From the IMG/VR virus record IMGVR_UViG_3300037258_001229, positions 1 to 24,841 of that record: a stretch of DNA of 24,841 nucleotides; one strand, given 5' to 3'. The stretch comes from a virus. A program made the translations under genes and the position numbers. Under the pieces are notes generated by a model that saw nothing but the letters and a program-made list of their open reading frames with translations, was not told where the DNA came from and did not search any database. Positions 2,928 through 24,841 of the stretch are shown piece by piece (the stretch's first letter is position 1; each line of letters opens with the position of its first letter).

Positions 2928-4100
2928 TCATGTTGCGGAATTTTGGAAAGCCTTGATTGCCCCCGCGTCGACGAGAGCCCCCCCGCAGCGGGCGATCGCG
3001 AGGAAGCCGACCTGGCCGAACTTGATGTATCCGCTGTCGTCCATTCGCAGCAGAGTTACCTGCAGCCCATCGCGAACCTTATAGCCAAGGTAGAAGTTTC
3101 CGAACCAGATCGACTTCGCGTTCGCGGCCATGACGGGCAAATCGTCGTTCACATCGACTGGGTACCCCATCAACGTCTCGCTCTCCTGTCCCACCTTGGG
3201 CAAGTACAGAGGCTGCCCGGCGGTGTCCTTCAACTTGCGCACCACCTTGAATGTCGCATCCGCCATGCTAAAGGCCAATCCGGTGCGGAATGTCTGCCGA
3301 TAGGCGGCGTTGACGCTGTGGATCAGTGTGACCAGATCATCATTGATGACGGTCGTAGTCTCCCCCGTGGTGCCCGTGACGCCGACAGTGCCGGCCGTTG
3401 CGAATCCCTGCGGCTCAGTTGTACCTGCGCCGGTTGTGAATTTCGTATTCGTGATCCTGCCGATGCGCGAGGCGCCGCGGCGAAAGACGAAGGCCTCGAT
3501 GTCGATGCTTGAATCCTGTAGCAACTCCAGGGGAACCGCGAACACTTTGCTCGAATACTTGAACGTGTTGAGCGGCGCGGTGCCGAAGCTTGGGTCGAGG
3601 CTGGCCGCGGCGGCGTTTTCACCAAGCTGCTCGCCAGTCTCGGCGGTACCGTCCGATGTCGGGTAACTGAGCGCATTGCCCTTCGCGGTAACGACTACCT
3701 CGGCGAAGCGGCGCACTCCGCCATAGTCCTTGAGCGCATCGACGAAGGCACTTGCGACGCCAATGCCCACCGTGTAGCCGCCCTGGCTGTTGGTGCCCTC
3801 CGACATGGTGTTGCGATACTGCGTGCGTTGCTCCTGAGTAAATGCGCCGAAGCCGCCTCGGATATACGCATTGCATGCTGCGTCGCGCTCTGTGATCCCG
3901 AGGCGCGAGAGCTGATTGGCGTCAGCGGTGCGATCTGCAGCGGCGATCTCGTGGTCGAGCCGATCGAGGTGCGCGAGATTGGAATCCCAGATCGCCATTT
4001 CGGTCGAATCGAGGTTTCGCGACCCGATCCGATCGCGCAAATTGCGCATTGCGCGGGCGACGCCGTTCCGCTGGTCTTGCAGCATCTGAAGTTTGTTCAT
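2928..4100 (-). CDS. Phage major capsid protein, HK97 fold, 390 aa
   Basis: The shell-forming protein of an HK97-type head. Residues 1-75 form a charged helical N-terminal domain (RNGVARAMRNLRDRI onward) like the delta/scaffolding region that a protease normally removes. The capsid domain follows with EGTNSQGGYTVG, then VVTAKGNALSYPTSDGTAETGEQLGE, FKYSSKVFAVPLELLQDSSIDIEAF, the ITNTKFTTGAGTTEPQG motif typical of the family, and a C-terminal LRMDDSGYIKFGQVGFLAIARCGGALVDAGAIKAF. Length is typical. AGGAGG lies eight to nine bases before the ATG, and the start overlaps the stop of the upstream gene (TAATG). Unusually, no portal or head protease gene lies upstream. Confidence 0.92.
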   Translation of the reverse strand: MNKLQMLQDQRNGVARAMRNLRDRIGSRNLDSTEMAIWDSNLAHLDRLDHEIAAADRTADANQLSRLGITERDAACNAYIRGGFGAFTQEQRTQYRNTMSEGTNSQGGYTVGIGVASAFVDALKDYGGVRRFAEVVVTAKGNALSYPTSDGTAETGEQLGENAAAASLDPSFGTAPLNTFKYSSKVFAVPLELLQDSSIDIEAFVFRRGASRIGRITNTKFTTGAGTTEPQGFATAGTVGVTGTTGETTTVINDDLVTLIHSVNAAYRQTFRTGLAFSMADATFKVVRKLKDTAGQPLYLPKVGQESETLMGYPVDVNDDLPVMAANAKSIWFGNFYLGYKVRDGLQVTLLRMDDSGYIKFGQVGFLAIARCGGALVDAGAIKAFQNSAT

Positions 4101-6465: not shown

Positions 6466-7827
6466 CTATAGATCATTGGAATCGCCGCCACGACGCCGGC
6501 GCTGCGCGAGTGTCACACGGTACTGATGCCGATCGCCTGCATCGAGTACGGCAACGCGGGACAGCGCACCGTTGAATGTCCAAAGACATAGGCCGCGCTC
6601 TCCGTTTCGATGCTTGACTACGTTGCATTCCAGTACGTCGCGCATCGCGAAGCCATTGTCGTAGTGCCCTTCGCTGAATAGCAATCCGATAATGTCAGCA
6701 CTTTCCTCGATTGCGCCGCAGTCACGCAAGTCGCTTGCATTGGGCCGTTTATCGTCACGTGATTCGACGCCGCGATTCAACTGTGCGAGAGCGATAACGG
6801 GTATGGCGAGATCTTTGGCAAGCGCCTTCAGTGAGTAGCTCACATCGCGCAATTGATCGTACCGATTGTGTCCGACGCCGCGCAGAAGTTGCAGGTAATC
6901 GATGATCACCAGGCCAAGTCCGGCGCGCGCCTTCAGCGCAGTGCATTCTGATCTGACATGCGAGACCGTTGGTGCTGAGGAGTCATCGATCCACAACTTC
7001 AGCCGTGCAATCTTCGTCGCGGCCGGCGTGATGGCTTCCCACTCGGCGTCGGTCAGCTCCTTCGCAGTGCGAAGCTTTCCTTGCGGCACGCTACTTTCAA
7101 ACGCGACGGCTCGACGCATCAGTTGGCGCGCGGGCATCTCAGCAGAGAAAATAGCGACTTGGGCGCGCGTGGCGACGTGCGCGGCAATGCTGATGATAGT
7201 TGCTGTTTTTCCCATGCCGGGCCGACCTGCGAGCACCACCAGGTCACCAGGCTCAAGGCCATGCGTGAGCTCATCGAAGTCGCTCAGGCCGATCTGCAGT
7301 CCGTGTTGTCTGTCGCGGCGGGAGTCGAGTTCATCGATAAACTCGTGCGTCAGCGTCTCGCTGTGCACGAGCCCGGCGCCACGGCGCGTTGCGGCATGCA
7401 GCTGCAGCAGTTGCTCCTGAGCTCGAATCAACGCCGCGTGCCCATCGTCGGTGCCCGCGGAGGCTTGTCGGTCGAGCTGCTCGGCGAAGGCCTTCAGCTG
7501 CCGGCGCAAGGACCAATCGATCACTGTGGCAGCGTAGGCCTCGATATTCGCGACTCCCGGTGTGTCCTTTGCGAGCGTGCCGAGGTACGCAATGCCACCG
7601 GCGTCGAACAGCAGGCCGCGCCGCTCGAGGTAATCGCCGAGCACGACCAGGTCGAAGGGTTTGCCGACGCCAGCCAGTTGCTCGATCCCGGCGAATATCG
7701 TCCGATGATCGGGGCGGTAAAAGTCGGCGGCGGCGAGGCCTGTGAGCCGGCACCACGCAGCCGGCTCGAGCATGAGGCCGCCGATCACGGCTTGCTCCGC
7801 GGGCAGCGAGTAGAGATCAGCGGCCAT
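6466..7827 (-). CDS. dnaB-like: DnaB-type replicative helicase, 453 aa
   Basis: Phage-encoded hexameric helicase that would unwind the element's DNA at the fork. An N-terminal DnaB domain (EQAVIGGLML at residues 11-20, FYRPDHRTIF at 36-45) is followed by a RecA-like domain with Walker A GRPGMGKT (201-208), IFSAEMP (227-232), Walker B VIIDYLQLL (307-315), and ALAQLNRGVESRDDKRPNASDLRDCGAIEESADII with the sensor and arginine-finger region. Length is typical of DnaB. GGAG stands six bases before the ATG, and the start overlaps the DUF1376 gene by 11 bases, so loader and helicase are probably co-translated. All key motifs are intact. Confidence 0.93.
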   Translation of the reverse strand: MAADLYSLPAEQAVIGGLMLEPAAWCRLTGLAAADFYRPDHRTIFAGIEQLAGVGKPFDLVVLGDYLERRGLLFDAGGIAYLGTLAKDTPGVANIEAYAATVIDWSLRRQLKAFAEQLDRQASAGTDDGHAALIRAQEQLLQLHAATRRGAGLVHSETLTHEFIDELDSRRDRQHGLQIGLSDFDELTHGLEPGDLVVLAGRPGMGKTATIISIAAHVATRAQVAIFSAEMPARQLMRRAVAFESSVPQGKLRTAKELTDAEWEAITPAATKIARLKLWIDDSSAPTVSHVRSECTALKARAGLGLVIIDYLQLLRGVGHNRYDQLRDVSYSLKALAKDLAIPVIALAQLNRGVESRDDKRPNASDLRDCGAIEESADIIGLLFSEGHYDNGFAMRDVLECNVVKHRNGERGLCLWTFNGALSRVAVLDAGDRHQYRVTLAQRRRRGGDSNDL

Positions 7828-8698
7828 CGCGAGCTCCGTTGACGCGACCGCGATCGTCGTATTTTCCCTCGATCGTCTTCGCGAAATTCTCCGGTTTGAG
7901 CAACCAGGGCAGATCGGCTCGAAAATCTGTCTTGCGGCCGGTAAGGAACGAGCTCGCCGCCACCTTCTGGAAATATTTTTGCCAATACTCCGGGGAATCG
8001 GCAGGAAGGCCCTCGGCGACGCGCTCGAGGGCTCTGGCGGTCAGTGCGGCGGCGCGCGCCTTCGACCACACTTTGACTCGCGGCAGCTCGGGGAGGGTTT
8101 CGTGGTACGCGGCAATGACCTGGTCGTGGAACGGTTTTGCCCGGCACCTGGCCTTGTTCGAGGAATTGCGGCCGCGAGGCCGAGAGTCCGAGTCCTCGAG
8201 GACTCCAGAAACCGGAGACGGAGACGGAGACGGAGACGGAGACGGAGACGGAGACGGAAGCATCCCCTGGGCATATGCAGAATCGGATCCCACAGCATCT
8301 GCTGCAGCATGTGCCCCGGCATCTGCTGCGGCAGATGCCGCAGCATCATCGAATAGGTCAGGGCTATCAGCGTGCCACCGCTTTTCCGCCTTCTGCCGTG
8401 CAGTCTGGGATCGACGCCTGGACTCCGCTCGATGCTCCTCGAGCCGCGCGTTTACCAGGCCGCCGGCCGTTTCGGTGAACTTCTCGCGGATGCCCGGCCA
8501 AATCAGCGCGAATTCCTCGGCGCCGCAACCGACCAGGCGCCCGAGTCGCGCGAGATCAGTGGGAAGCGGTCCCGTTTCCCATGAGAAAAACAGCAGGTCC
8601 GTGTACGCGCCACGCTCAGCCAGGGATAAGTGGCGAGTGGCGGCGATGTAGTCGCGGACGAACCAGGGCAGCATTGCGAGCTGTGCACCGGTGCCCAT
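7817..8698 (-). CDS. DUF1376 (YdaU-like) phage replication protein, 293 aa
   Basis: The N-terminal 90 residues match DUF1376: MLPWFVRDYIAATRHLSLAERGAYTDLL, WETGPLPTDLARLGRLVGC, then W..IREKF and NARLEEHR. A low-complexity linker follows with alternating Ala-rich and Pro-Ser repeats (encoded at 8214-8255). The C-terminus, SFLTGRKTDFRADLPWLLKPENFAKTIEGKYDD, is the motif shared by phage O/DnaT-like replication proteins. In phages such proteins pair with a DnaB helicase, which is the next gene here, so it is probably the origin-binding or helicase-loading partner. Start at ATG 8698 overlaps the upstream stop (TGATG). Confidence 0.85.
   Translation of the reverse strand: MGTGAQLAMLPWFVRDYIAATRHLSLAERGAYTDLLFFSWETGPLPTDLARLGRLVGCGAEEFALIWPGIREKFTETAGGLVNARLEEHRAESRRRSQTARQKAEKRWHADSPDLFDDAAASAAADAGAHAAADAVGSDSAYAQGMLPSPSPSPSPSPSPSPVSGVLEDSDSRPRGRNSSNKARCRAKPFHDQVIAAYHETLPELPRVKVWSKARAAALTARALERVAEGLPADSPEYWQKYFQKVAASSFLTGRKTDFRADLPWLLKPENFAKTIEGKYDDRGRVNGARDGR
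8214..8255. repeat. Hexanucleotide tandem repeat (GGAGAC, seven copies)
   Basis: Seven perfect head-to-tail copies of GGAGAC on the plus strand, read on the minus strand as the Pro-Ser repeat in the linker of the DUF1376 protein. The unit is a multiple of three, so gain or loss of copies changes linker length without shifting the frame. Confidence 0.95.
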
Positions 8699-8922
8699 CA
8701 ATTGCGACGCCCAAGAAATATTTGTGTCGCCCTATACAGCTGCGCTCCGCGAAAGCACTGGATGCAGAGATTCCACCACGACGGTCGATCCATCAGCGGG
8801 TAGCCGCAGGACGCGCATACGCGAGGCGCGACGCGTTCCCGAAAGGGCAGGATTGCGGCGCCAGCAGCAGCAGATCCGCTACCCGGCGCCCCTGCGGCGG
8901 CCGGCTCGTGTAATCTTGGCAT
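8698..8922 (-). CDS. Small zinc-ribbon protein, 74 aa
   Basis: The C-terminal half has two CxxC pairs, CASCGYPL and CIQCFRG, about twenty residues apart with PSWWN between, a typical zinc ribbon. The N-terminal half is Ala/Gly-rich and probably disordered. The ATG at 8922 has GAGGA nine bases upstream and lies inside the upstream gene (44-base overlap); the stop overlaps the DUF1376 start (TGATG). Such mini-ribbons are common just before replication genes in prophages; a DNA- or protein-binding role is likely, but unknown. The compact overlaps on both sides argue that it is real. Confidence 0.7.
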   Translation of the reverse strand: MPRLHEPAAAGAPGSGSAAAGAAILPFRERVAPRVCASCGYPLMDRPSWWNLCIQCFRGAQLYRATQIFLGRRN

Positions 8923-10084: not shown

Positions 10085-11851
10085 ATGAAAGCAGCTATCT
10101 ACACACGCTTTTCGTCCGATCGTCAGCGCGAGGCCTCCACCGAGGATCAGGCGCGCAACTGTCGGCGCCGGCTCGAATCTGAGGGCTTCACGCTTGGCGC
10201 GCATTTCCGCGATGAAGCGATGTCTGGCTCGATATCAGCTCGACCCGGTTACCAGAAAATGCTGAAGGCCGCGGAGGCGCGAGAGTTTGTCGTCCTCGTG
10301 GTCGACGATCTGTCCCGCCTCTCTCGTGACCAGGTCGAGAGCGAGCGTACTATCCGCCGCCTGGAATTCAGCGGCGTGCGCATCATCGGCGTGAGCGACG
10401 GCTACGACAGTCAGAGCAAGAGCCGCAAAGTGCAGCGTGGCGTGCGTGGGCTGATGAATGAAATTTATCTCGACGATCTAAAGGATAAGACCCATCGAGG
10501 CCTCGCCGGTCAGGCGCTGAAGAAATATTGGGCGGGTGGCAAGCCGTACGGTTACAGCCTGGCGCAAATCAAGGATGAGAGCAGGAGAGATACGTACGGC
10601 AATCCGGAAGTCATCGGCACAACGCTCGCGATCGAGCCGACGCAGGCCGCAGTCGTGCGCGAGATCTTCGGGTTATACGCTGAGGATTACAGCCAGGTCG
10701 CGATCGCGGAGACACTCAATCGACGAAAGGTGCCTTCCCCTGGCTCGTCTTGGAAGGGCCGAACGGTGCGTCGCACTTCCGGATGGCTCGGCAGCACGAT
10801 CAACTCGCTGCTGGAGAACGAGCTGTATCGCGGGAAGTACCATTGGAACAAATCCGAGTGGCGAAAGGATCCGGACTCTGGCCGACGCAAGATGCGCGTG
10901 CGCCCGAAGTCGGAATGGATTACGAACGACATGCCGGAGCTTCGGATCCTCGACGAGGAGCTGTGGCATCGAGCTCAGGAGCGGCGCGCGCGCTCTAAGA
11001 TACGTGGCGCAGCTGTCGGCGCGGGTATCGCACGCGGCCATTCCGTCGGCGGTGGTCCGCGCTATGCCTTCAGCGGGTTGCTGAAATGCGAACTGTGCGG
11101 CAGCTCACTTGTAATCATTGGTGGCAGCGGCGAGAAGAATCGGACCTATGGCTGTTCGGGGAATAAGTTCGGTGGCTCGCCAGTCTGCGCGAATGCGATC
11201 GGTGTGCGGCAGACGCTCCTCGAGTCGAAGCTGTGCACGCCGATCAAGCGCGATCTGCTGACCCCGGCGTTCCTGGCCGATATCGAGCGACGCGTAATCC
11301 AGAAACAGGCGACCAGGTCGAAGGGCGCAACAGACAGTGCGCCGCGCGTTGCTGCTCTGCGCCAACAGATCGAGAATCTCGGCGAAGCTGTCGCCTCTGG
11401 AGGGCTGCGGAATTCGCCCGCATTGGCGCAGCGTCTGACGGCGGCCGAGGAGGAGCTGGCAACGCTTCTGGCGCAATGCGCTCGGCCAACCGCGCAGATC
11501 ATCGACCTGCCTGCGCGGTTGGCGAAGCGGATCGCTAAGCTCGTCGACGGCCTGGAGCTAAAGATCAATCAGCAGCCGCATCGGGCGAGGGCCGCGATTC
11601 GGGAGATCTGCGGCGATATTCCGGTGAGACCGGATCCGACGGGTAAGTTTTTGTTGGCCCGGGTGGGCCTGAGCCAGACGCTGCTGGCTGCAGTCGCTGG
11701 CTCCGAGAGGTTCATGGTAGCGGGGGCGCGCTATGTGACGTTCCGCAGGTTCCCGGTTCGGCGCTGCTTAGATAGGAAAAACAATAACTTACTGGCGTCT
11801 CGCTCTTGCTCAATCTTGCCGGATTTTGGCGGGACATTAGACGGCCGTTAG
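10085..11851 (+). CDS. Large serine recombinase (phage integrase type), 588 aa
   Basis: Site-specific recombinase that would integrate and excise the element. The N-terminal resolvase domain has YTRFSSDRQ with the predicted catalytic Ser10, then the VDDLSRLSRD motif with conserved arginines, and the long E helix. The recombinase domain follows (GGKPYGYSL; PTQAAVVREIFGLYAE; NRRKVPSP; STINSLLENELYRGKYHWNK), then a zinc ribbon with CELCG and a later C..C pair (about residues 335-370). A coiled-coil region (VAALRQQIENLGEAV; TAAEEELATLL) ends it. Length is normal for the family. GGGGAATC precedes the ATG. The last about 40 residues are unusual in composition and could be altered sequence. Confidence 0.93.
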   Translation: MKAAIYTRFSSDRQREASTEDQARNCRRRLESEGFTLGAHFRDEAMSGSISARPGYQKMLKAAEAREFVVLVVDDLSRLSRDQVESERTIRRLEFSGVRIIGVSDGYDSQSKSRKVQRGVRGLMNEIYLDDLKDKTHRGLAGQALKKYWAGGKPYGYSLAQIKDESRRDTYGNPEVIGTTLAIEPTQAAVVREIFGLYAEDYSQVAIAETLNRRKVPSPGSSWKGRTVRRTSGWLGSTINSLLENELYRGKYHWNKSEWRKDPDSGRRKMRVRPKSEWITNDMPELRILDEELWHRAQERRARSKIRGAAVGAGIARGHSVGGGPRYAFSGLLKCELCGSSLVIIGGSGEKNRTYGCSGNKFGGSPVCANAIGVRQTLLESKLCTPIKRDLLTPAFLADIERRVIQKQATRSKGATDSAPRVAALRQQIENLGEAVASGGLRNSPALAQRLTAAEEELATLLAQCARPTAQIIDLPARLAKRIAKLVDGLELKINQQPHRARAAIREICGDIPVRPDPTGKFLLARVGLSQTLLAAVAGSERFMVAGARYVTFRRFPVRRCLDRKNNNLLASRSCSILPDFGGTLDGR

Positions 11852-21527: not shown

Positions 21528-22982
21528 TCATGCCCAATCCGCATCATCCCAGTCATCTGCCGTAGACATTGGCTGATCGAGCAAGAGAAGCGCCTCGGCG
21601 CTGATGGTGATTCCAAGCGGCTGGCTCGATGCCAGCCACAGCGCGCCACAAGCGGCGTTGGCGGCGTCATCGTGCCCACGTGGGGGATGATCCACGCTGT
21701 CGCTGCGCCCGCCTGCGCGGGGTCGACGTTCGAGCAAACGCAGCTCCGTGGCCAGGCGCTTATCTTCGATGAGCTCCACACGACGCTCGGCGAAGAGCGG
21801 CAGCACCTCGCAATAGATGGCGGACTTGTCAAGTTCTGACTGTTCATACCTGATGCCAAACTTGCCGAAGGCATCTGAGACCCAAGCTCCCGCGTATCGA
21901 TCCCCGGTAACGGTGTGCAGCCCGTGATCCTTCAGCACCTTGGCGAAGCGCTCGACGATTGCGGCCGGCTCGTGCGGGGCTGGCACGCAATGCAGGGCGT
22001 CCAGGCGCACACTGGGTTTGTCGGCGCTCTCGGCATGGGCGATGGCAAGGGCGCTTGCATCATGACGGCCACCAGACATGTCCACGAAGGCAACTGCCGG
22101 ATAGGAGGTTCCACTCTTCAGGCGACCTGGCTCAAGGGCGGCATCGAGCAACTCATCCTCCAGCCACTGCGAAACATCCGAGCGAAATTCACCAAACCAC
22201 TCGGATCGCGCCGCCACTGGATCCTCCGCCATCGCCCGCTCGATGATCTTCGGGTCGATCGTGGGATTCATCCGCGTGTGAGTGGCCTGCATCACCAACA
22301 CATCGGAAGGCTTGCCGTAATGTGCCTGATACATGGCATAAAGATGGCCGCGGCGAGCGTGAGGGGAGGAGAGCCCGATCAGACGGCCGCCCAAGTTGGC
22401 AAGGCCAGGGCGCACCGCGCGCACCAGTTCAACGTCTGGATTTGCGGACATGTCGTCACGGTAAAATGCTAATTCGTCTAAAACAACGCACACATAGCTG
22501 AATCCGCGCGTACTGCGAAAGCTCGTGGTGTGCACTTCCAAGCGCACGCGATGCGAAAACGTGATGCTCTCGGCAGTGTCGCCGCAAACCTCAGCCGCGA
22601 TCATGGGCGAGTCGGCGATCAGGCCTTTGACGTAGTTCATCAGCTGCCGGGCCTGCCTACGATCGGATGCGATCATGGCGACCGTGGCGATCTCGCCAGG
22701 GCCCAGCCGGTCGCGGTAGTCCTGTAGCGCGGCATGCAGGCCCAGCGCCGCGGCGAAGAGAGTACCGCCCGCCCTGCGAGGCTTGACGAGGTAGGCTTCC
22801 GAGAACGGGTTTAGTGGCGGCTCTGCGCGTCCGGTTATCTCCCGATATAGCGCCAATTGCTCCATGTCGAGCGGCTGGCCGTCCAATATCCGAGCCACCG
22901 CGCGCCATGCTGCGAAAGTAGGGCCACCGAAGGTGCGGCCGAACAGGTCCGGATCGAGCATGCAGTCGTACAGGCACTTCAT
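21528..22982 (-). CDS. terL: Phage terminase large subunit, 484 aa
   Basis: Packaging motor ATPase and nuclease. Walker A region KPRRAGGTLFAAAL (67-80) has Lys at its start and GGT where most motors have GKS/T, a variant like that of phage lambda, whose ATP-binding lysine also lies early. Walker B is YVCVVLDE (163-170), the coupling motif LIGLSSPHAR (201-210). The nuclease domain shows VAFVDMSGGRHD (D301), TGDRYAG (D361) and a DHPPRGHDDAANA motif (D438/D439). Length is normal and the protein looks complete. The start overlaps the upstream stop (ATGA), so it is coupled with the putative small subunit. No portal gene follows. Confidence 0.88.
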   Translation of the reverse strand: MKCLYDCMLDPDLFGRTFGGPTFAAWRAVARILDGQPLDMEQLALYREITGRAEPPLNPFSEAYLVKPRRAGGTLFAAALGLHAALQDYRDRLGPGEIATVAMIASDRRQARQLMNYVKGLIADSPMIAAEVCGDTAESITFSHRVRLEVHTTSFRSTRGFSYVCVVLDELAFYRDDMSANPDVELVRAVRPGLANLGGRLIGLSSPHARRGHLYAMYQAHYGKPSDVLVMQATHTRMNPTIDPKIIERAMAEDPVAARSEWFGEFRSDVSQWLEDELLDAALEPGRLKSGTSYPAVAFVDMSGGRHDASALAIAHAESADKPSVRLDALHCVPAPHEPAAIVERFAKVLKDHGLHTVTGDRYAGAWVSDAFGKFGIRYEQSELDKSAIYCEVLPLFAERRVELIEDKRLATELRLLERRPRAGGRSDSVDHPPRGHDDAANAACGALWLASSQPLGITISAEALLLLDQPMSTADDWDDADWA

Positions 22983-23380
22983 GAGCGAGGCTCAGTCGAC
23001 GATTCGACACGAGCCGGATCACCTTCCATCACCTCGCGTAGCCGCTTTGCGGGGCGCTGGCGCCGATCAAGTCCAAGGAGGCGGTAAAGGCCCAGCAGCG
23101 AGTTGATCGCCTGTGTGTGGCCGCCCAGGTCGATTCCTTCGCCTGATGCGAGCTTCTGCTCTGAGTGCTCGATGATCGCCTCCAACCACACGACGCGGCG
23201 CACGAGGCTTTGCCTGGCGTGGCTCAGCCCGTCAGCGCCGCCCATGTCCGACTCGATGGCCTCGATGCGCCCGCAGATGGCTTTGGCGATATTGGTGCGC
23301 CGGTCCAGCCGCTCGGCGAAGTCCGGGCTGTACTTGTCGGGTATCGTCGCCAGGATCTTGGCGGAAGTGTCACGCGGCAT
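22979..23380 (-). CDS. Putative terminase small subunit-like protein, 133 aa
   Basis: Helical protein directly upstream of the large terminase with a four-base overlap. Middle and end: QSLVRRVVWLEAIIEHSEQK, LASGEGIDLGGHTQAINSLL, GLYRLLGLDRRQRPAKRLRE. The segment GHTQAINSLLGLYRLLGLDRR resembles small proteins encoded just before the terminase in several proteobacterial prophages. Start ATG at 23380 has GGAG eight bases upstream. The position strongly suggests a small terminase or packaging cofactor; the family is not certain. A DNA-binding domain is not evident. Confidence 0.6.
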   Translation of the reverse strand: MPRDTSAKILATIPDKYSPDFAERLDRRTNIAKAICGRIEAIESDMGGADGLSHARQSLVRRVVWLEAIIEHSEQKLASGEGIDLGGHTQAINSLLGLYRLLGLDRRQRPAKRLREVMEGDPARVESSTEPRS

Positions 23381-23571: not shown

Positions 23572-23595
23572 CCCTAGCCTCTACAGAGGCTAGGG
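23572..23595. other. Perfect ten-base-pair hairpin
   Basis: CCCTAGCCTC, loop TACA, GAGGCTAGGG. No T run follows on either strand, so it is not a classic terminator. It lies 16 bases from the first repeat triplet, so it may belong to the same cis-acting region. Confidence 0.6.
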
Positions 23596-23611: not shown

Positions 23612-23638
23612 GGGTGCGATGGGGGCGATGGGGGCGAT
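23612..23638 (+). repeat. Three direct 9-bp repeats (iteron-like), left arm
   Basis: Head-to-tail GGGTGCGAT (23612-23620), GGGGGCGAT (23621-23629), GGGGGCGAT (23630-23638). Same unit as the inverted right arm. Candidate binding sites for an initiator or helicase. Confidence 0.75.
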
Positions 23639-23697
23639 GGTTTCCCCCCATTCCCCCTAATATGTACCTGCCACTTTGACCCGCGTACGGAGTAACC

Positions 23698-23724
23698 ATT
23701 GCACCTATTGCACCCATCGCACCC
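23698..23724 (-). repeat. Three direct 9-bp repeats (iteron-like), right arm
   Basis: Read on the minus strand: GGGTGCGAT (23724-23716), GGGTGCAAT (23715-23707), AGGTGCAAT (23706-23698), head to tail. The outermost copy is identical to the outermost left-arm copy. The right arm ends 16 bases after the helicase/primase stop. Confidence 0.75.
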
Positions 23725-23740: not shown

Positions 23741-24841
23741 TCATCGGATCACCCGAAGTTGATAGCGACTCACGCCGTGCGTTCGGCCGTCTTGAACGAG
23801 CTTCCGCTGGCCTGCCACCTGGTCACGGTGTTCGCGAAGCCAGTAGCCAATTACCTTTGCATTGGTGGCATCGCTGCATCCGGCCGCCTCGATGGCGTGC
23901 CGCAGATCCTCCCCGTCATAGGCGTTGCAGCCCGTGGCGATATCGCTGGCGCTGAATGCGCCCTGGAACCGCTCCCGGGCGGCCAGTGCATCGAATGCGT
24001 CAATGAGCGGGGCGGTCTCCTCATCGGTCTCCAATTGCTGTGTGGTGACCGCATCGCCATAACCGATCCAGGCGATGGGGTCCCGTACGATGCGGCTCCA
24101 GGTCTCGAAGGATTCCAGTGGTCGAAGGCTTACTCGGTCCGACGCCAGCGCATAGGCGCGGATGACGGTGAGCGCGTCGACCAACATCTGCGGGCGCCGG
24201 GCGCGAACATAGGCCTTCAGGTCGGTAATGGCGAAATTCCTACCCCGTGCACTTTCAGTATTGGCGTCGAGTCGCACGACGATGCAGCGACGAGCAAGAT
24301 CCCCGGTAGGGCTGATATTGTTGCCCGTCAGCACGATCTGGCAGCGATTGGGCAGCGTAGGGGACTCGCTCACCCCCAGTTTGCGGTCCGAGTACACCGG
24401 GGCTGTCACGAAGGCGCACAGGATGGCCGAGCGCACCTTGGCGCCCGATGGCACGTTGTCGAAATAGATTGCTGAATCCCCGGCGAGCAGCACGCTCATG
24501 AGCACCTTGCGGATCTCCTCGGACTCATCCGTGTACGGCTTCATCCCAGGCTCCGTGCCGTCCGCAATGCGCACCGGCATGCCGGCGAGCAGCGTCTTGC
24601 CGGTTGCGGCAAGGGGCGCGGTGTAGGTAAAGATGGGTCTCGTGTCGATGGCATGGCGGGCGGCAGCGGTGAGAATGTGCGAAAGGAATGCGGCTTTCGC
24701 CTCATCCGTGGCAAACGGGAATTCCTTGAACGGCTCAAGTAGCCGCTCCAGAGCCGCGTCCGCATCGTCCTTGTTCGGGCTTTCCGGCATCGGCGGAAAT
24801 TGTGCATTCGGCGCGAGGTAGACGCGCGAGGCCGGATCGTA
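23741..24841 (-). CDS. Phage helicase/primase ATPase, C-terminal part (5' end cut by window)
   Basis: The frame is open to the edge of the window. The longest internal ATG is at 24790, but the frame continues upstream (LAPNAQFPP), so the gene is truncated by the window, not by mutation. It holds an AAA+-like ATPase: Walker A TAPLAATGKTLLA, then Walker B SAIYFDNVPSG, sensor region QIVLTGNNISPTGDLARR, CIVVRLD. The C-terminus (IGYWLREHRDQVAGQRK... DGRTHGVSRYQLRV) matches the winged-helix end of phage primase-helicases. It probably replicates the right module, together with the repeats just downstream. A DnaB-like helicase is already encoded on the left. Confidence 0.8.
   Translation of the reverse strand, partial: YDPASRVYLAPNAQFPPMPESPNKDDADAALERLLEPFKEFPFATDEAKAAFLSHILTAAARHAIDTRPIFTYTAPLAATGKTLLAGMPVRIADGTEPGMKPYTDESEEIRKVLMSVLLAGDSAIYFDNVPSGAKVRSAILCAFVTAPVYSDRKLGVSESPTLPNRCQIVLTGNNISPTGDLARRCIVVRLDANTESARGRNFAITDLKAYVRARRPQMLVDALTVIRAYALASDRVSLRPLESFETWSRIVRDPIAWIGYGDAVTTQQLETDEETAPLIDAFDALAARERFQGAFSASDIATGCNAYDGEDLRHAIEAAGCSDATNAKVIGYWLREHRDQVAGQRKLVQDGRTHGVSRYQLRVIR

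Follow-up and report, generated by a model that had tools for sequence, protein, structure and literature searches.

Replication origins of the SaPI type carry two opposed sets of iterons around an AT-rich region, 3′ of rep. The SaPI initiators and the SCCmec protein Cch2 bind iterons directly downstream of their own genes, just three of them in the case of Cch2, and two hexamers have been proposed in these systems (PMC7581432). In the Streptomyces plasmid pWTY27, repAB and an adjacent iteron make up the basic replication locus, with the primase on a separate gene; replication is bidirectional, and RepA binds the iteron specifically in EMSA, its footprint protecting positions 405–447 and 462–509 of a site that the authors interpreted as a stem-loop (PMC3583192). 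In the archaeal plasmid pRN1, which encodes ORF904, a 100-bp stem-loop is essential; it follows the primase-helicase gene on the 3′ side and was described as iteron-free (PMC4234260). Phage BIP-1 is said to carry a comparable stem-loop.

The window analyzed here, the whole 24,841-bp IMG/VR record of an uncharacterised phage, contains an array that begins 16 bp beyond the stop codon of a helicase gene and in which three 9-bp sites face three on the other strand across a 59-bp gap, exactly as an earlier note on this DNA had claimed, coordinates included (Table 1). The array is part of a longer inverted repeat (23610–23647/23689–23726) with 82% complementarity, and its centre holds a pair of G-runs (TTAGGGGGAATGGGGGGAAA on the − strand). 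Arrays were scored with a detector of opposed arms of three tandem units, which combines tandem period (6 to 13 bp) and opposition and is calibrated on dinucleotide-preserving shuffles. The array reached z = 13.1 at period 9, compared with a maximum of 3.3 among 60 such shuffles, and, when the whole window was scanned, ranked first with a normalised score of 0.75, about twice that of the runner-up (0.38). The motif GGGKGCRAT occurs six times in the window versus 1.14 expected, a count reached by none of 100 shuffles, and five of the six occurrences fall within the array, which is not a chance product. No second copy of the array was found elsewhere in the record, and a DNA-level similarity search of the interval against phages gave zero matches. 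Scans with the pattern of the window's iteron hit mostly coding repeats, such as APIAPI, and two non-coding sites (in loci L008 and L013); an Rfam match was a sub-threshold miRNA only and was discarded as spurious.

Table 1. Features of the window
Feature	Coordinates	Strand	Sequence or basis
First iteron triplet	23612–23638	+	GGGTGCGAT GGGGGCGAT GGGGGCGAT
Iteron unit	23612–23620	+	GGGTGCGAT
Iteron unit	23621–23629	+	GGGGGCGAT
Iteron unit	23630–23638	+	GGGGGCGAT
Central region between triplets	23639–23697		59 bp; strands proposed to be melted and primed here
Second, opposed iteron triplet	23698–23724	−	Outermost first: GGGTGCGAT GGGTGCAAT AGGTGCAAT
Iteron unit	23698–23706	−	AGGTGCAAT
Iteron unit	23707–23715	−	GGGTGCAAT
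Iteron unit	23716–23724	−	GGGTGCGAT
Perfect hairpin	23572–23595		CCCTAGCCTCT-AC-AGAGGCTAGGG; 11-bp stem, 2-nt loop
AAA+ initiator helicase (C-terminal 366 aa)	23741–24841	−	phrog_29234; predicted fold
133-aa ORF in small-terminase position	22979–23380	−	Position only
Large terminase	21528–22982	−	phrog_2, E 3.8e-17
Second replication module	6466–8701	−	DnaB-like helicase and lambda-O/DnaD-like initiator
GGAGAC hexamer run in O-like gene	8213–8258
Palindromic stretch in O-like gene	8286–8347		GCATCTGC/GCAGATGC
Large serine integrase	10085–11851	+	Resolvase, recombinase and zinc-ribbon domains

The 3′ end of the helicase gene is preserved, and the 5′ part, including the start, is lost at the contig end. 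The remaining 366 aa also match a DNA polymerase/primase PHROG, and single-protein searches of viral contigs retrieved zero close relatives for the helicase or the small terminase. Two sequences gave an unusable structure prediction (pLDDT 36), and a set of 24, drawn from viral and genome contigs, yielded a model with pLDDT 90.6. The best solved matches of this model in Foldseek were SaPI5 PriRep1 with dsDNA (7pds, E 2e-7) and the C-terminal region of NrS-1 PrimPol (6k9e), and the VIA Z to 7ola was 12.7 (200 residues, rmsd 3.3). African swine fever virus PrimPol and poxvirus D5/E5 were matched as well, with papillomavirus E1 and MCM ranking lower. The AAA+ fold of the model and these matches point to a D5/SF3-type initiator of the SaPI5 PriRep1/NrS-1/D5 group, and the end of the chain (approximately residues 298–364) is predicted to form helices followed by two strands, in a winged-helix-like arrangement. 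Among relatives, a Prim-Pol domain forms the N-terminus in L025 and L027, and the full-length L025 also has PriCT-2; the window gene is cut before the position where any such region would lie. The array indeed adjoins a helicase, as the earlier note had it, although the contig shows no primase domain such as the note included. The small terminase on the opposite side is recognizable by position only, as a 133-aa ORF with no PHROG or Pfam match. The large terminase, unlike this ORF, is solidly identified from its sequence. The hairpin described in the earlier note is real and lies 16 bp from the array, as claimed; located beyond the array, it probably acts as a transcription terminator, one lacking a T-run, and the origin mechanism proposed below does not need it.

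We gathered 76 loci encoding homologous helicases by protein similarity only, from phages and plasmids, genomes, and viral contigs, and called an array when, within 400 bp past the helicase stop, z exceeded 5 and the score was above every shuffle. Opposed tandem arrays were detected in 46 of these loci, starting at a median of 16 bp past the stop codon and with a median gap of 63 bp. The best period was 9 bp in 29 of the positive loci, 10 bp in 13, and 8 or 11 bp in two each, so that 42 of the 46 have a period of 9 or 10. Such arrays are rare elsewhere in the same DNA: a period-9 score of at least 20 was obtained for 15 of 40 downstream regions versus 3 of 1016 other 400-bp windows from the same loci, all three exceptions being located within the helicase 3′ end or a short way past it. 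When inverted repeats were picked blind to periodicity (49 of 76 loci), the autocorrelation of their arms peaked at a shift of 9 (0.49 versus a background of ~0.28). Iterons accompanied by an opposed partner include, for instance, AGTGGGTTT in three copies in an Azospirillum prophage, AGGGGTTTG in a Methylobacterium plasmid, GGTAGGGATA with period 10 in a 6.5-kb Psychrobacter plasmid (L023), and GCGGGTATT, GTGTGCATA, and CCGGGTTTA in other relatives.

The letters of the iteron vary from element to element, and this variation tracks helicase identity. Across the 46 positive loci, arm similarity correlates with identity in the AAA+ part (Mantel rho 0.37, p 0.001, n = 46) and in the C-terminal part (rho 0.24, p 0.003, n = 46), with p values that are indicative because the relatives are not independent; among the first 14 loci, the covariation was below significance. 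The comparison with related elements that the earlier note had envisaged turned out in its favor, with the layout recurring and the sequence shifting in step with the helicase. A central TGACA/TGTCA motif seemed recurrent on visual inspection, but its enrichment was weak, and we do not put it forward as a shared element. In 30 of the 76 loci, the detector found no array; some of these are truncated, some have an in-gene array, and the others may use another site. At period 9, neither Methanothrix pGP6 nor a Methanosarcinales virus (L016) has a three-copy array that reaches significance. In L035 and L036 (~2950–3350), an opposed array (GGGGAACGT and GTGAATGTT, respectively) is located within the helicase ORF itself, towards the 3′ end of its coding sequence. 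A further variation is seen in L062, where the region past the helicase and its array (~3500–4000) contains small ORFs that by eye resemble a stand-alone C-terminal winged-helix domain, one of which holds an opposed array of its own with a different unit, GCAGGGTTT; these possibly represent a spare DNA-binding domain plus origin cassette.

The closest characterized counterpart is pWTY27, whose RepA is homologous to the window helicase (BLASTP 4e-27 over 268 aa; hhalign 99.8% over 354 columns) and whose opposed, G-rich short repeats likewise lie 3′ of the initiator gene. Applied to the downstream DNA of this plasmid blind to the footprint, the detector placed the arms at 400–426 and 481–507, leaving a gap of ~54 bp within the ~105-bp inverted repeat that is bound by RepA. 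The pWTY27 site differs from that of the window in its units (GTGGGAAC), the larger array with further copies, and the actinobacterial plasmid host replicon. SaPI Rep/PriRep1 and SCCmec Cch2 (PDB 7pds, 7ola) share with the window the initiator fold and the location of iterons 3′ of the helicase gene, but belong to a different sequence family; relative to the SaPI-type layout, the window has the opposed sets and their position, and the centre of the array, with ~54% G+C versus 60% for the window, is only mildly, not strongly, AT-rich. In pRN1, we found that each arm of the stem is a tandem pair of 9-bp units facing the pair in the other arm (TTATGTCCATAGTGTCCA; z 7.7, 0/100 shuffles), so that this ~100-bp inverted repeat resembles the window array in its tandem 9-bp units, similar loop, and position 3′ of a primase-helicase gene, the difference being two units per arm versus three. 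The alpha protein of phage P4, according to a published summary, is also a winged-helix initiator helicase that binds short repeats, but one with a TOPRIM primase. The likeness to P4 suggested in the earlier note is confined to function; in predicted structure, the initiator is closest to SaPI5 PriRep1, NrS-1, and D5.

Taken together, the recurrence of the layout 3′ of homologous helicases, its scarcity elsewhere in the same DNA, the iteron-helicase covariation, and the pWTY27 footprint bear out the origin reading of the earlier note, and we conclude that the array is very probably a theta-type replication origin run by the adjoining helicase. The functional element could alternatively be a DNA (or RNA) stem-loop rather than double-stranded iterons, as preferred by the authors of the pRN1 (PMC4234260) and pWTY27 (PMC3583192) papers; indeed, the strand outperforms shuffles in folding (z −4.2), and units in stem-paired positions resemble each other more (0.84) than do cross-arm units that are not paired (0.74), a difference favored by the chosen register. 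However, a stem needs no tandem period, whereas the arms display one of 9 bp even in loci chosen for an inverted repeat alone, and so does the pRN1 stem itself. In the window, the arms mispair at several positions, yet every unit retains the iteron consensus, and the pWTY27 footprint covers the arms and leaves the loop free (PMC3583192). We thus regard a stem-loop as an unlikely explanation.

Pac sites are frequently found in or near small-terminase genes, and the location of the array between the helicase and terminase genes would suit a packaging (cos/pac) site read by the neighbouring small terminase, the alternative raised in the earlier note. This is disfavored by the observations that plasmids both small and large that lack a terminase carry the array after a homologous helicase, that the nearest helicase relatives (L055 and L070) carry a PDDEXK/RusA-like nuclease gene beside it, that the terminase genes of the window have no homologue in any helicase locus, and that the protein bound in pWTY27 is the helicase homologue (PMC3583192). 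The array therefore belongs to the helicase and does not travel with terminase genes in the manner of cos/pac sites, making a packaging role very unlikely. Iterons often double as copy-number control, and the array could serve the helicase as an autoregulatory operator or as incompatibility/copy-control iterons, without being an origin; this is highly improbable, given that in the positive loci the array sits 3′ of the gene to be regulated rather than at its promoter, and that replication of pWTY27 (PMC3583192) and pRN1 (PMC4234260) requires the corresponding region. As an intergenic imperfect inverted repeat, it might even be a functionless repeat or a REP/MITE-like mobile remnant, but its single occurrence in the record and the conservation of position and architecture, with a sequence changing in step with the helicase, render this barely conceivable.

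As an origin, the array would operate as follows. Copies of the helicase would use the winged-helix-like domain at their C-terminus to bind each 9-bp iteron, with the domains of neighbouring subunits occupying the three units of one triplet. At 10.5 bp per turn, a 9-bp pitch amounts by arithmetic to about −51 degrees per site, near the 60-degree step of a hexamer, to which it may be linked. Each triplet would nucleate one AAA+ hexamer, and the opposed orientation would make two hexamers face each other across the 59-bp centre, which their ATP-driven movement would melt. A primase partner, fused or adjacent in relatives and cut off in this contig, could then prime both strands, and two forks would depart in opposite directions. 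Specific binding, dependence of replication on the repeat region, and bidirectional replication are known from pWTY27, and pRN1 has an essential cis element 3′ of the gene; what the window and its relatives show directly is the array, its position and recurrence, the covariation, and the predicted helicase fold.

Elsewhere in the window, a second replication module combines a DnaB-like helicase with a lambda-O/DnaD-like initiator, and within the O-like gene lie a run of GGAGAC hexamers and a palindromic stretch (Table 1), repeats that sit where lambdoid phages keep their origin. Given this module, the array may not be the sole or main origin of the phage. The window also encodes a large serine integrase, which indicates that the element is probably temperate.

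Related arrangements extend beyond the helicase family of the window. In L013 (7935–8120), opposed GGGTGCAAT iterons near-identical to those of the window (z 12.6), together with a similar G-run pair, follow a DUF3987 primase-helicase that is unmatched by the helicase profile of the window. A survey of DUF families, based on the longest ORF per locus, recovered opposed arrays in 7 of 21 DUF927, 5 of 13 DUF5906, and 5 of 23 DUF3987 loci, counts that are indicative only and include a few probably coding repeats. Several of the loci L129–L175, which encode DUF927 proteins, related to SaPI Rep/Cch, and DUF5906 proteins, have opposed 9-bp arrays, such as GGTAACGCA in three copies (L159) and GGGCAACAT (L137). 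We tentatively suggest, at somewhat less than even confidence, that the initiator helicases of the window's family, DUF927, DUF5906, DUF3987, and pRN1 share one grammar, whereby two to three tandem sites of 9-bp pitch are opposed across ~60 bp just 3′ of the gene, the pitch is set by the hexamer, with one site per neighbouring subunit, and the stem-loops of pRN1 and pWTY27 are opposed double-hexamer iterons. As a site, the array is a probable iteron origin of an already known type, that of D5/SF3-type initiator helicases. What may be new is the wider rule of opposed triplets at 9 bp, into which the "stem-loop" origin of pRN1 also fits; we found neither this rule nor its indicative recurrence after DUF927, DUF5906, and DUF3987 helicases stated in the open-access papers that were searched, most subscription journals lying outside this scope.

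The array provides a compact, testable origin candidate for an uncharacterised phage. Should the 9-bp opposed rule prove general, it would tie origin anatomy to the two-hexamer loading of D5/SF3 ring helicases and offer a way to decide whether pRN1-type origins are better read as a "stem-loop" or as an "iteron" array. If the grammar is true, origins would be predictable from sequence alone, giving a simple origin-finding rule for many plasmids, prophages, and satellites in which the initiator bears the annotation "hypothetical."
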